64,000 nucleotides of DNA from Solirubrobacterales bacterium (GTDB lineage: Bacteria > Actinomycetota > Thermoleophilia > Solirubrobacterales > 70-9). Made by a program: the position numbers and the translations under genes. The notes under the pieces were generated by a model, which was not told where the DNA came from, did no database searches, and was given only the letters and a program-made list of their open reading frames with translations. How positions within the stretch are numbered: position 1 is the stretch's first letter; each line of letters begins with the position of its first letter. Where the stretch lies: contig JAICSS010000014.1 in assembly GCA_025936755.1 (NCBI GenBank), positions 1-64,000 of the forward strand, read 5' to 3'. This document shows, piece after piece, positions 56,901 through 63,741 of this stretch.

Positions 56901-58274
<1,374 letters not shown>

Positions 58275-58294: not shown

Positions 58295-59296
58295 CTACTC
58301 GGCCAGCAGCGCGTTCGCGTAGTCGCTCGGGTCGAAGGGCCGCAGGTCCTCGAGCGTCTCCCCGACGCCGATCAGCTTCACCGGGATGCCGAGGTCGGAG
58401 GCGATCGCGAGGGCGATGCCGCCGCGGGCGGTGCCGTCGAGCTTGGTGAGGACGACGCCGTCGACCTCGACCGCCTCGGAGAAGACCTTGGCCTGGCGGA
58501 GGCCGTTCTGGCCGGTGGTGGCGTCGATCGAGATCAGGGTCTCGTGCGGGGCCTCTGGGATCTGCTTCTGGATCACCCGCCGCACCTTCGCCAGCTCCTC
58601 CATCAGGTTGCTCTGGGTGTGGAGGCGGCCGGCGGTGTCGACGATGACGACGTCGGCGCCGCGGGCGCGGGCGGCGTTGATCGCGTCGTAGGCGACGGCG
58701 CCGGGGTCGGCCCCCTCTTCGCCGCGGACCAGCTCGGCGCCGGCGCGCTCGGCCCAGGTTTCGAGCTGCTCGGCGGCGGCGGCGCGGTAGGTGTCGGCGG
58801 CGGCCATGACCACGCTCAGGCCCATCTCCCGGCTCAAATGCCAGGCGATCTTGCCGATCGTCGTCGTCTTGCCGGTGCCGTTGACCCCGACCATCATCAG
58901 AATCGCCGGCTCGGCGCTGAGGTCGATCGGGGCCCTCGCGGTGCCCGCGACCTCGGCGAGGATCTCGATCAGGCGGTCGCGAACGGCGACCCCGTCGGCC
59001 GGGACCGCGCCGGACTCGACCTCGTGCTCCAAGCGCTCGACCACGGCGGCCGTCGTCGGCGCCCCGACGTCGGCGAGGATCAGCGCCTCCTCCAGCAGCT
59101 CCCAGGTCTCGCCGTCGATCCGGTCGAAGAGGCTGGAGGAGATCTCCTCGGTCAGCGCCTGGCGGCTTTTCGAGAGGCTCTCGCGCAGCCGCTTGAAGAC
59201 CCCTCTCCTCTCCTCAGGCGCCTCCGCCTCGGCGGTGGCCACCGCGCTCGGGCTGCGCGACCCGAGGTCGACGATCTCCTGCCAGCTCGTAGCCAT
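58295..59296 (-). CDS. ftsY: signal recognition particle receptor FtsY
   Basis: A 333-residue NG-domain GTPase with a short N-terminal extension. GVNGTGKTTTIGKIAWHL, IVDTAGRLHTQSNLMEEL and TKLDGTARGGIALAI are the GTPase motifs. There is no long acidic A-domain. Confidence 0.96.
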   Translation of the reverse strand: MATSWQEIVDLGSRSPSAVATAEAEAPEERRGVFKRLRESLSKSRQALTEEISSSLFDRIDGETWELLEEALILADVGAPTTAAVVERLEHEVESGAVPADGVAVRDRLIEILAEVAGTARAPIDLSAEPAILMMVGVNGTGKTTTIGKIAWHLSREMGLSVVMAAADTYRAAAAEQLETWAERAGAELVRGEEGADPGAVAYDAINAARARGADVVIVDTAGRLHTQSNLMEELAKVRRVIQKQIPEAPHETLISIDATTGQNGLRQAKVFSEAVEVDGVVLTKLDGTARGGIALAIASDLGIPVKLIGVGETLEDLRPFDPSDYANALLAE

Positions 59297-59317: not shown

Positions 59318-61681
59318 CTAGGCGACGGCGGAGAGGCCCGGGGCTTCGCCCTCGTCCTCTTCGTCCTCGGCGACTTCGCGCGGCAGCTTCCGCGAGACGA
59401 CCTTGGTGACGCCGTCGCCGCCCATGCTGACGCCGTAGAGGACGTCGGCGGCGTCCATCGTCCGTTTCTGGTGGGTGACGATGACGAACTGGGCGCGGTC
59501 GGAGAAGCGGCGGATCAGCTGCAGGAAGCGGTCGATGTTGGCGTCGTCGAGAGCGGCCTCGACCTCGTCGAGGATGTAGAAGGGGCACGGCCGGGCGAGG
59601 AAGACGGCGAAGACGAAGGCCAGCGCGACCAGGGACTTCTCGCCGCCGGAGAGCAGCTGCAGCTTCCGCGTCGACTTGCCGGCGGGGGTGACCTCGATCT
59701 CGACCCCGAGCTCGTCGCGCTCCTCTTCTTCCTCCTCGAGCTCGGGCTCGGCGTCGGTCGGAGCCTCCTGCTCGCCGGCGGGCCGTTCGTCGTCGCGGAC
59801 CGGCCGCAGGCTGACCCGCCGCAGGCGCCCCCGCCCGCCGGGGAAGAGGTGCTCGACCATCTCCTCGAAGTTCTTCGCGGTGGCGTCGAAGGTCTGCTCG
59901 AAGGCGCGCTCGATCTCGTCGTCGATGTCGCGGATCAGCGACTCCAGCTCCCGCATCGATCTCTCGATGTCCTCGCGCTGGACCTGCAGGCTCTCGACGT
60001 GCTCGCGGGCCTCGTCGTATTCCTGCTCGGCCAGCGGGTTGACCGGCCCGATCTGCGCCCGCCGCCGCTCCAGCCTCTGCAGCCGCCGGTCGATCTCGGC
60101 CCGGGCCTCGTCGGTCAGGGCCTCCTCGGCGGGCGGGATCTCCTCCCCCAGCCGCTCGGCGATCGCCCCCAGCTCGCGCTCGGCCTCGGCCCGGCGGTCG
60201 CCGAGGTGGGCGGCCTCGACCTCGGCCCGGGTCAGCTCCTCGGAGGTCTCCTTCATCTGCCCCTGCAGCTCGAACTCCCGCTGGGAGCAGGCGCGCAGCT
60301 CCTCGGCGATCTCGTCGCCGTCGTCCTGGCCGCCGACGACCTTGCGCTCGATCGCTCCGACCCGCTCGCGGATCGCGGTCCCGGCGGCCTCGGCGGCGGC
60401 GCGGGCGCCGCGGACGTCGTCGAGCAGCTCCTCGCCGGCGGCGACGCGGGCGCGCAAGGCCTCGCGCGCGCGTTCGCCGAGCAGGCCCTCGGCGCGGCGG
60501 GCGTGGCGGGAGGCGCGCTCGGCGCCGGCGCGGACGTCGCCGAGAGCCGCCTCGCGCGCCGCCTCGGCGGCGTCCGCGGAACGGGCGACTCCAAGTCCGT
60601 CGTTCGCGGTCCGCAGGCCGGCGTCGATCTCCCCCAGCTCCTCTTCCAGCTTCCGCGCCCGTTCGCCGGGCGCCGCGCCCGACCCCACGTCCAGCGTCAG
60701 CGGCCCCAGCTCGGTCCGCAGCCGCTCCAGCCCCGCCTCCAGCTCCGTCTCGCGGCTCGCGAGGCTGTTGACACGTACCGCGACCCGCTCCTGCTCGCCG
60801 CGCAGCTTCGTCAGCAGCCCCCAGGCCTGGGTGCGCTCGCGGTCGCGGGCGGCGAAGCGCTCCTCCGCCGCGGCGCGGCGTTTCGCCACCTCGGCCAGCC
60901 GCTCCTCGAGCTCGTCGCGGACGCCGCGCGCCTTCGCCGCCGCCTTCTCCGCCGCCGCCGCCCGGTCGGCGCCGAAGCGCAGTTCCTCGGAGACCAGCTG
61001 CGCCCGCAGGCCCAGCTCGTCGCGCTCGATCCGCGCCCCCAGCTCGGCCGCCTGCGCCTGCCGCTTCAGCGGCCGCAGCCGCGCCCGCGCCTCGCGCTCG
61101 ACGTCGAGGGCGCGGTCGAGGTTGTCGCGCGCCGAGCGCAGCTTCAGCTCGGCCCGGCGCCGGCGCTTGCGGTGCTTGCCGAGGCCGGCCGCCTCCTCGA
61201 CCAGGAGCCGCCGCTCGCGCGGCTTCGAGTGGACGATCGTCTCGACCCGCCCCTGGCTGATCACCGAGTGCATCTCGCGGCCGAGGTTGGTGTCGGAGAG
61301 GACGTCGGTGACGTCGGCGAGGCGGCAGCGGGCGCCGTTCAGGCGGTAGCCGCTGTCGCCGGAGCGGTCGAGCCGGCGCTCGACCGCGATCTCGGAGAAC
61401 TCGGTGGCGGCGCGGCCGTCGGAGTTGTCGATCGTCACCTCGACCTCGGCCGCCCTGCGCTGGGCGATCCCCTTGCCGCCGGCGGAGATCACGTCCTGCA
61501 TCGAGGCGCCGCGGATCGCCCCCGGGCTCTGCTCGCCGAGCGCCCAGAGGACGGCGTCGGTGATGTTGCTCTTGCCCGAGCCGTTGGGGCCGACGATGAC
61601 GCTGACGCCCGGGGAGAACTCCAGCGTCGTGCGCTCGGGGAAGGACTTGAAGCCCTTCATCGAGATCGACCTCAGGTACAT
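59318..61681 (-). CDS. smc: short SMC-family chromosome segregation ATPase, no hinge seen
   Basis: Head domains are canonical: Walker A GPNGSGKSNITDAV (about 32), then MHSVISQGRVETIVHSKP, the signature LLSGGEKSLVALAF (about 677) and Walker B FYILDEVEAALD (about 705). The total is 787 residues instead of about 1,150-1,200. Between the heads (about 170-620) lies only Ala/Glu/Arg-rich coiled coil broken by small Gly-containing links; the globular hinge with its conserved glycines was not found. The frame is continuous, with no sign of a frameshift. An acidic insert lies before the signature. The position between rnc and ftsY is the normal one for smc. Confidence 0.85.
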   Translation of the reverse strand: MYLRSISMKGFKSFPERTTLEFSPGVSVIVGPNGSGKSNITDAVLWALGEQSPGAIRGASMQDVISAGGKGIAQRRAAEVEVTIDNSDGRAATEFSEIAVERRLDRSGDSGYRLNGARCRLADVTDVLSDTNLGREMHSVISQGRVETIVHSKPRERRLLVEEAAGLGKHRKRRRRAELKLRSARDNLDRALDVEREARARLRPLKRQAQAAELGARIERDELGLRAQLVSEELRFGADRAAAAEKAAAKARGVRDELEERLAEVAKRRAAAEERFAARDRERTQAWGLLTKLRGEQERVAVRVNSLASRETELEAGLERLRTELGPLTLDVGSGAAPGERARKLEEELGEIDAGLRTANDGLGVARSADAAEAAREAALGDVRAGAERASRHARRAEGLLGERAREALRARVAAGEELLDDVRGARAAAEAAGTAIRERVGAIERKVVGGQDDGDEIAEELRACSQREFELQGQMKETSEELTRAEVEAAHLGDRRAEAERELGAIAERLGEEIPPAEEALTDEARAEIDRRLQRLERRRAQIGPVNPLAEQEYDEAREHVESLQVQREDIERSMRELESLIRDIDDEIERAFEQTFDATAKNFEEMVEHLFPGGRGRLRRVSLRPVRDDERPAGEQEAPTDAEPELEEEEEERDELGVEIEVTPAGKSTRKLQLLSGGEKSLVALAFVFAVFLARPCPFYILDEVEAALDDANIDRFLQLIRRFSDRAQFVIVTHQKRTMDAADVLYGVSMGGDGVTKVVSRKLPREVAEDEEDEGEAPGLSAVA

Positions 61682-61741
61682 GCGCGGGCACCTCGCATCG
61701 CCCAGATGCTCCCGGTCTGCCCGGACGCGACTGCCGCTGGA

Positions 61742-62437
61742 TTAACCCCCAAGATGCGCCAATGCCTCCTCGGCGGCAAGCTGCTCGGCCGCCTTCTTGC
61801 TCCGCCCTTTCCCCGTCCCGACCCGCTCGGAGCCGACGATCGCGGCCACCTCGAAGGTTCGCCGGTGCGGGGGGCCCGTCGCCGCGGTCACCTCGTAGGT
61901 TACGCGCGCTCCGCGCTGGGCCAAAAGCTCCTGCAAAGCGGACTTGAAATCGATCCGGGTCTCGGAGGCGAGCTCGATCCGCGGCTCGAACGCCTCGGCC
62001 ACCGCCGCCGCGGTCCGCTCGAAGCCGAAGGCGACGTAGCAGGCGCCGATCAGGGCCTCGGTCGCCTCCGGCAGCGGCCGGCCGCCGTCGAGCAGGACCT
62101 CGGCCGGGATCGCCGCCACCACCCCCTCGGGCTCGTTGGCCCGCAGCATCTCCGGCACCCCCAGCGCCGTCCCCACCTCGGCGCAGGAGACGCCGCTGAC
62201 CGCCTGGTTGTGGACCTTGGTCAGGCCGCCGGCCGCCAGCTTCTCGAAGCTCTCGTAGACCCGGGTGGCGACGGCGAGGCCGAGGACGCTGTCGCCGAGG
62301 AAGGCGAGCCGCTCGAAGGAGTCGACCCGGCGCTCGGTCCAGGAGGAGTGGGTCAGCGCCTGCCTGCGGAGGTCCTCGGGCAGCTCTTCGACCAGGGCTG
62401 CCAGCGCCGCGACGGGAGAGTCGGGGTCCGGCGCCAC
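61742..62437 (-). CDS. rnc: ribonuclease III with altered metal-ligand residues
   Basis: A 231-residue RNase III with an endonuclease domain (1-150) and a double-stranded-RNA-binding domain (about 160-230, KGRSKKAAEQLAAEEAL). The signature reads FERLAFLGDSVLGL; the usual sequence has Glu where this has Ala (E. coli Glu41). The second acid pair reads PEATEALIGA, with Glu at the usual Asp (Asp114) and Glu117 kept. So one metal ligand is lost and another changed. Confidence 0.9.
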   Translation of the reverse strand: MAPDPDSPVAALAALVEELPEDLRRQALTHSSWTERRVDSFERLAFLGDSVLGLAVATRVYESFEKLAAGGLTKVHNQAVSGVSCAEVGTALGVPEMLRANEPEGVVAAIPAEVLLDGGRPLPEATEALIGACYVAFGFERTAAAVAEAFEPRIELASETRIDFKSALQELLAQRGARVTYEVTAATGPPHRRTFEVAAIVGSERVGTGKGRSKKAAEQLAAEEALAHLGG

Positions 62438-62441
62438 CGGC

Positions 62442-62687
62442 TCAGGCTGGCGCCTGCTCCAGCACGAACCCGACCGCGTCGCCGACGGTCTTGATCTGGG
62501 CCGCCTGCTGCTCGGAGACGGCGACCCCGTAGCGGTCCTCCAGCTCCATCACCAGCTCGTAGAGGTCGAGCGAGTCGGCGTCGAGGTCCTCCTTGAAGCG
62601 GGTTCCCTCCTCGACCCGCTCGAGCGGGACTTCGAGCTCCTCGGCGAGGTGCTCGCGGACCAGGGTCAATACCTCGTCGCGGTTCAT
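62442..62687 (-). CDS. acpP: acyl carrier protein
   Basis: An 81-residue helical protein with the phosphopantetheine Ser in DLDADSLDLYELVMELED. It starts with ATG 62687 and ends 4 nt before the rnc start. Confidence 0.95.
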   Translation of the reverse strand: MNRDEVLTLVREHLAEELEVPLERVEEGTRFKEDLDADSLDLYELVMELEDRYGVAVSEQQAAQIKTVGDAVGFVLEQAPA

Positions 62688-62712: not shown

Positions 62713-63741
62713 TCAGGCGTCGCCGCCGGCCGCAAGGGCGCCGCGGCCGGCGCCGCCCTCGGCCAGGAGCGCGGCGGTGCGGCCGACCGCATCGACCTCG
62801 GCGCAGCGGGCGGCGAGGCCGACGGCGTTGGCGATCCCCTCGGCGCCGGAGCTGCCGTGGCCGACGACGGCGATCCCCCGCAGGCCGAGCAGGATCGCGC
62901 CGCCGGTGGTGTCGGGGTGGAGCTCTCGCCGCAGCCCGTCGAGGGCGGGCCTCAGCAGCAGGCCGCCGACCGCGGCGACGGGGTTGGAGCGGGCGGCGTC
63001 GCCGACCGCGGCGGCGACGGTCTTCGCGGTCCCCTCCAGGAGCTTCAGGGAGACGTTGCCGGTGAAGCCGTCGGTGACGACGACGTCGACCCTGGCGGCG
63101 GGCAGGTCACGGCCCTCGACGTTGCCCGCGAAGCGGATCCCGGGGGCGGCGGCGAGCAGGCGGTGCGCCTCGACAACCTCCTCGCGCCCCTTGCCGGACT
63201 CCTCGCCGACCGTGAGCAGGCCGACCGATGGATCCTCGACCTCGAGCACGGCGGCGCTGAAGGCGGCGCCGAGGAAGGCGAACTGGACCAGGTGCTGGGC
63301 GCGGACCTCGACGTTGGCGCCGACGTCGAGGAAGAGCACCGGTTTGCCGGGGACCGGCACCTGCGCCGCGAGCGCCGGGCGCTGCACGCCCTTGAGGCGG
63401 CGCAGGCCGAAGGTGGCGGCGGCCATCGTCGCCCCGGTCGAGCCGCAGCTGACCAGGGCGGCCGAGCTCCCTGCGGCGACGTCGCCGGCGGCGCGGACGA
63501 CCGAGGCCTCCTTCTTGGCGCGGACCGCCGCGACCGGGTCCTCCTCGTTGCCGATGCGCTCCGCCGTCTCGACGACTTCGATTCCATCGACGCCGTCGAG
63601 CCCGAGCGCGCGCCGCGGCCCGAAGACGCGAACGCCGATGCCGTCGGCGGCGGCCAGCCGCGCGCCCTGCGCGAGCACCCCGAAGCCCTGCTCGGTCCCG
63701 TAGCCGTCGAGGGCCACGGTCACCGCGCGGTCCCGCGCCAC
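62713..63741 (-). CDS. plsX: phosphate acyltransferase PlsX
   Basis: Makes acyl-phosphate from acyl-ACP for phospholipid synthesis. The 342 residues show VTVALDGYGTEQG near the start, SCGSTGATMAAATFGLRRL, FLDVGANVEV and VVTDGFTGNVSLKLLEG. It is next to acpP and rpmF as usual. Confidence 0.94.
   Translation of the reverse strand: MARDRAVTVALDGYGTEQGFGVLAQGARLAAADGIGVRVFGPRRALGLDGVDGIEVVETAERIGNEEDPVAAVRAKKEASVVRAAGDVAAGSSAALVSCGSTGATMAAATFGLRRLKGVQRPALAAQVPVPGKPVLFLDVGANVEVRAQHLVQFAFLGAAFSAAVLEVEDPSVGLLTVGEESGKGREEVVEAHRLLAAAPGIRFAGNVEGRDLPAARVDVVVTDGFTGNVSLKLLEGTAKTVAAAVGDAARSNPVAAVGGLLLRPALDGLRRELHPDTTGGAILLGLRGIAVVGHGSSGAEGIANAVGLAARCAEVDAVGRTAALLAEGGAGRGALAAGGDA

Follow-up and report, generated by a model that had tools for sequence, protein, structure and literature searches.

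Absence of the hinge from an orthologous smc

The window analyzed here, a 64,000-nucleotide stretch from a Solirubrobacterales bacterium (positions 1 to 64,000 of contig JAICSS010000014.1, GenBank assembly GCA_025936755.1), carries an smc gene whose product, a protein of 787 amino acids (aa), lacks the hinge. Models of SMC action make the hinge central as a dimerizer, ring closure or gate, and it has long been considered essential. The gene probably arose by deletion of the hinge together with part of both arms, and its product most likely still serves as the ATPase of an Smc-ScpAB condensin. The protein scored 621.6 bits against TIGR02168 (SMC_prok_B; cut-off 567.35), and its gene occupies the orthologous gene place, in the order plsX-rnc-smc-ftsY-ffh. 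Because of this score and gene order, the protein is, at the level of sequence, the orthologous Smc, i.e., the cell's ordinary SMC. A preliminary description of the window had placed the gene in its normal position and reported both ATPase head halves to be intact, and both statements held. The split ABC ATPase head is complete, with GPNGSGKS (Walker A), Q143, LSGGE (signature) and FYILDE (Walker B) all read from the translation and an SMC_N match, and the heads are the best conserved region of the hinge-free SMC. The protein departs from the canonical SMC in its missing hinge, but by orthology it remains an SMC and probably acts as one.

Searches with the Pfam hinge (SMC_hinge, PF06470) gave no match in the 787-aa protein at E ≤ 10 and none in the whole 2.4-Mb genome, and in the family alignment (A1) the hinge was found in 0 of 20 members among the matches listed. 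A hidden Markov model (HMM) built on the hinges of 31 hinge-bearing relatives matched 38 further SMC proteins, whereas all 46 hingeless ones went unmatched; in the six frames of the window it gave nothing above noise (best E 0.16). The full-length AlphaFold model passed from one helix (residues 168-329) through a loop to a second (338-366), and then through a short turn to a third (373-449) that continued to the joint. There were no strands between the heads, which are joined by a helical hairpin alone. When the apex fragment was modeled by itself, the mean predicted local distance difference test score (pLDDT) was 89, the turn fell at residues 368-372 and the loop at 329-337 was of low confidence. 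Pfam, the family HMM and AlphaFold therefore bear out the preliminary description, in which no hinge was visible and only coiled coil joined the heads; neither structure prediction nor a sensitive profile brought a hinge to light.

Extent of the deletion and selection on the arms

Compared with its nearest hinge-bearing sisters (1,072-1,086 aa), the protein is missing ~285 residues. Alignment by hhalign to one of these sisters (L159; 1,075 aa, Pfam hinge at 447-544, 58% identity over aligned columns) was gap-free over residues 1-351 and firm again from ~411, with short uncertain blocks between. As judged from such comparisons, the deletion took out the hinge plus the distal portion of each arm, ~285 residues in total. 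The earlier figure of about 400 missing residues is correct in relation to SMCs of ~1,180 aa, but it is too large in relation to the nearest hinge-bearing sisters.

The same hinge-free form was present among orthologues in Thermoleophilia, in a group of bacteria that live in soil and water. Intact smc frames of ~780-910 aa without a hinge occurred in eight genera of one family (f1), namely the genus of the 787-aa protein and seven others (g1, g2, g4, g5, g7, g9, g11 and g12 in all), and one of these hinge-free genomes is a single contig of 3.4 Mb (G014, L158). Sister genera g3, g8 and g10 of the same family keep the hinge, and in some f1 genomes smc is divided over contigs and is uninformative on this point. 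The span from EEAAG to GPVNP measured 379-383 residues in 25 hingeless proteins (standard deviation 0.96), as against 665-707 residues in 32 hinge-bearing relatives (standard deviation 9.1). Ratios of nonsynonymous to synonymous substitution (dN/dS; Nei-Gojobori, four pairs) were <0.32 in every region tested and 0.01-0.29 in the apex. The hinge-free SMC is under purifying selection and its arm span is fixed. Indeed, the near-invariant span suggests that selection maintains the geometry of the arms rather than a hinge.

Condensin partners and a possible mode of action

Partners of Smc were sought in 61 relatives' genomes, and ScpA was matched in 60, ScpB in 59 and ParB in 60, the source genome being included in each count. 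There, as the preliminary description had proposed to check, scpA (250 aa) and scpB (190 aa) are both present and adjoin each other; both products match NCBIfam models, with ScpA falling under their whole-protein cut-offs but above the Pfam cut-off. No second full-length smc was found in the source genome by TIGR02168, which detected one locus per genome in the source and single-contig genomes; MksB- and JetC-type SMCs were not searched for. A vertically inherited, constrained hinge-free smc, accompanied by scpA, scpB and parB and by no other TIGR02168 SMC, constitutes a natural experiment with two possible readings: a condensin can do without its hinge, or another clasp has come in its place.

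In Bacillus subtilis, the two Smc heads are bridged by ScpA and drawn together by ATP, and nothing in the hinge-free protein obviously removes either contact. The best Foldseek matches of the protein were Smc heads with coiled coil, some of them with ScpA bound. Since these matches include ScpA-bound heads and the heads are its most conserved part, we favor a condensin joined at the head end. Each protomer would comprise a head and a hairpin arm of ~200 residues (~30 nm), with ScpA (and ScpB) bridging two protomers, whose heads would also engage in an ATP-dependent manner. Loading onto DNA may be aided by ParB, and at their far ends the arms may make weak contact at most. In that case the ring between the arms would not be closed permanently, and it would be the kleisin and the heads that hold DNA. 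A condensin wholly devoid of SMC-SMC dimerization at the apex, with its arms joined by kleisin and heads only, no closed ring and several independent origins in Actinomycetota, can be put forward tentatively. Arm or apex contacts are unproven, and the earlier view that the protein must dimerize otherwise is reasonable but likewise unproven.

Several points weigh against a working hinge-free condensin. The Smc-ScpAB complex is predicted here from its genes, and the presence of scpAB and parB is no proof that they act with the hinge-free SMC, as there may be another reason for keeping ScpAB. Another condensin, of the MksB or JetC type, may exist in these genomes outside the scope of the TIGR02168 search. 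Confidence in the full-length AlphaFold model was modest (pLDDT 69, predicted template modeling score 0.42). Finally, abolishing hinge dimerization inactivates Smc in B. subtilis (PMC5344682).

Alternative explanations

In place of the hinge, the apex hairpin or outer arms might meet in a new homodimer contact, for instance as a side-by-side rod or four-helix bundle, and so keep the ring closed. We consider this less likely. B. subtilis needs dimerization at the apex and not a particular fold, as the unrelated zinc hook of Rad50 can stand in for its Smc hinge (PMC5344682; PMC6969161). In addition, residues 386-408 near the apex are well conserved, the apex evolves slower than the arms in one close pair (L054/L058), and the near-invariant arm span is also compatible with such a contact. 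However, there is neither a CxxC hook nor a globular apex domain. By our count, the two arms balance at ~200 residues each (168-367 for the N arm; 373-612 for the C arm, minus ~39 joint residues), which would leave no spare helix for an extra domain at the apex. Hinge-bearing relatives have a comparable motif that aligns with residues 386-408, and given this counterpart the segment need not be a new clasp, while residues 327-376 themselves are not unusually conserved.

We give only a slight chance to the proposal that the protein departed from the condensin role and works as a hinge-free repair ATPase like RecN or SbcC; the preliminary description had named a RecN/SbcC-like machine as one option. 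Its outline of head plus hairpin without a hinge does resemble RecN or a hookless SbcC. Nevertheless, its TIGR02168 score compares with 45.4 bits for RecN (TIGR00634, cut-off 407.85) and 29.9 bits for SbcC (TIGR00618, cut-off 478.5), both far from their thresholds, and a model of an archaea-specific SMC-related protein (NF045487) reached 78.5 bits against a cut-off of 300. Neither the 787-aa protein nor the other hingeless proteins examined contain a CxxC zinc hook, the gene holds the orthologous place, and the hingeless genomes retain scpA, scpB and parB.

Slighter still is the probability that a hinge is present but too diverged for profiles, or is provided in trans by another gene. Profiles can fail, and Pfam, which found the hinge in 10 of 12 long control SMCs, missed it in the other two. 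However, a globular domain of ~150 residues has no room in a protein that is predicted to be helical throughout the region, interrupted only by a short loop and by a turn of 5 residues, and the HMM from 31 relatives also found nothing. These two results reject a divergent hinge in this protein and so contradict the case in cis, and a hinge in trans is disfavored by the lack of PF06470 matches elsewhere in the genome. There is next to no probability that the gene reflects a deletion by assembly or a decaying pseudogene: the source assembly is in 45 contigs, but the same architecture and span recur across many assemblies, in 25 distinct sequences, including the intact frames of hingeless relatives and the single-contig genome, and open frames with low dN/dS reject decay.

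Apparent recurrence of hinge loss in Actinomycetota

The hinge appears to have been lost more than once in nature. Of 398 sampled genomes of the phylum, 349 gave an SMC above the cut-off. In four other families of Actinomycetota (f13, f16, f33 and f40), SMC frames matched the model with its hinge portion passed over. Members of f13, which belongs to another class (L168, L169, L171, L172, L175 and L185), measure 1,017-1,041 aa when complete and have near full-length arms, with a head-to-signature span of 762 residues in 6/6; here, the hinge alone seems to have been deleted. Hingeless SMCs are 736-773 aa long in f16, 885 aa in f33 and 916 aa in f40. Single-genome cases in Thermoleophilia comprise L183/L069, L086, L154 and L155, and the hinge is kept by L156 and L157, of the same genus as the last two. 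For 20 hingeless proteins outside family f1, SMC_hinge was not among the Pfam matches listed and the family HMM matched none. The firm cases are the multi-species families f1, f13 and f16, while each single-genome case rests on one assembly.

A tree of head sequences required nine changes in hinge state, at least seven of them forced by starred branches, although this was a quick tree with some long branches. A careful tree limited to Thermoleophilia required six, a number that was the same in bootstraps, but well-supported branches force only three. Both placed the hinge-bearing L159-L161 within the hingeless group of f1. Two separate losses inside that family were nonetheless not upheld, since a single hingeless clade passes the approximately unbiased test (p 0.146), and the shared span of 379-383 residues favors one loss event. 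Repeated losses would provide independent replicates of the natural experiment.

In L154 (3724-6516) and L155 (3385-6060), the SMC is shorter than in the other members of the genus (L156, L157). An alignment suggests that ~13 residues from the final hinge hairpin are retained (GRVWFASWGEVRQ vs GSVWSVTWLEVRR) as a possible remnant, which the family hinge HMM does not see. In the Thermoleophilia family f7 (e.g., G078, G145 and G220), many PF06470 matches span only ~9-63 of the 116 model positions, as if half of the hinge had diverged or been lost. L182 and L184 (1,115-1,117 aa, on very long branches) are of full length yet gave no hit with the family hinge HMM; we read stretches of non-coil in the middle of these proteins as degenerate hinges. 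G244 (L170) was at first hingeless by model match but was shown to carry a hinge. One bin, G242, holds two SMC loci, both hinge-bearing (contigs C27 and C109), owing to duplication or contamination.

Relation to known SMC systems

The 787-aa protein shares with the Smc of B. subtilis an orthologous head, joint and proximal arms, the gene place and the presence of scpA, scpB and parB in the genome; it differs in having no hinge and shorter arms (~200 residues each by count). RecN likewise has heads joined by a hinge-free hairpin but belongs to another family by HMM (45 bits vs 621), and it works without a kleisin. Rad50/SbcC and the archaeal SMC-related proteins (ASRPs; coalescin/Sph) also have a head and hairpin arm without an SMC hinge. 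However, they carry a zinc hook (in ASRPs mostly; PMC9389158), which is absent here, and their HMM scores for our protein lie far below the cut-offs. A functional SMC without a hinge has been engineered in B. subtilis by use of the Rad50 zinc hook (PMC5344682), but that protein is dimerized by the hook, whereas ours is without CxxC.

As a kind, the hinge-less SMC is already known. A 2025 study of ocean gene catalogues (PMC12153180) reported an actinobacterial cluster of hinge-less SMCs, the origin of which it left open. Like our protein, its members are SMCs by family, have no hinge and no CxxC, were not found alongside a regular SMC and are actinobacterial. In contrast, they are known as ocean metagenome sequences only, without named genomes, the text never mentions ScpA, and they are treated as one monophyletic marine clade. 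The hinge-free SMCs of f1 come from Thermoleophilia and have sisters that retain the hinge. The literature searched, which did not cover subscription papers, yielded no further description of a naturally hinge-less SMC. As far as we have seen, the separate losses, the kept scpAB and parB, the hinge-bearing sisters and the fixed arm span have not been described.

Gene coordinates and context

The positions of smc, of its parts and of the neighboring genes are given in Table 1.

Table 1. Parts of the hinge-free smc and adjoining genes, in window coordinates.
Feature	Coordinates	Strand	Basis
smc, hinge-free, 787 aa	59318..61681	-	Open reading frame from ATG, stop included; TIGR02168 over cut-off
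N-terminal ATPase head half, residues 1-165; Walker A GPNGSGKS (31-38), Q143	61187..61681	-	Translation; SMC_N match; high conservation
N-arm helix, residues 168-328	60698..61180	-	AlphaFold; hhalign with L159, gap-free vs hinge-bearing relatives
Distal N-arm helix, residues 338-367, beyond loop 329-337	60581..60670	-	AlphaFold, apex fragment
Apex turn, residues 368-372, near the missing hinge's place	60566..60580	-	AlphaFold; alignment to hinge-bearing relatives
C-arm, residues 373-612; joint ~512-550, conserved GPVNP 545-549	59846..60565	-	AlphaFold; conserved motif
C-terminal ATPase head half, residues 657-765; LSGGE 677-681, Walker B FYILDE 701-706	59387..59713	-	Translation; most conserved part
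plsX (context)	62713..63741	-	TIGR00182 over cut-off
rnc, RNase III (context)	61742..62437	-	TIGR02191 153.6 bits, slightly below cut-off 166.25
ftsY (context)	58295..59296	-	TIGR00064 over cut-off
ffh (context)	56901..58274	-	TIGR00959 over cut-off

An antisense open frame of 1,007 aa (59471-62494, + strand) spans smc and rnc; we ascribe it to the high G+C content and do not regard it as a gene.
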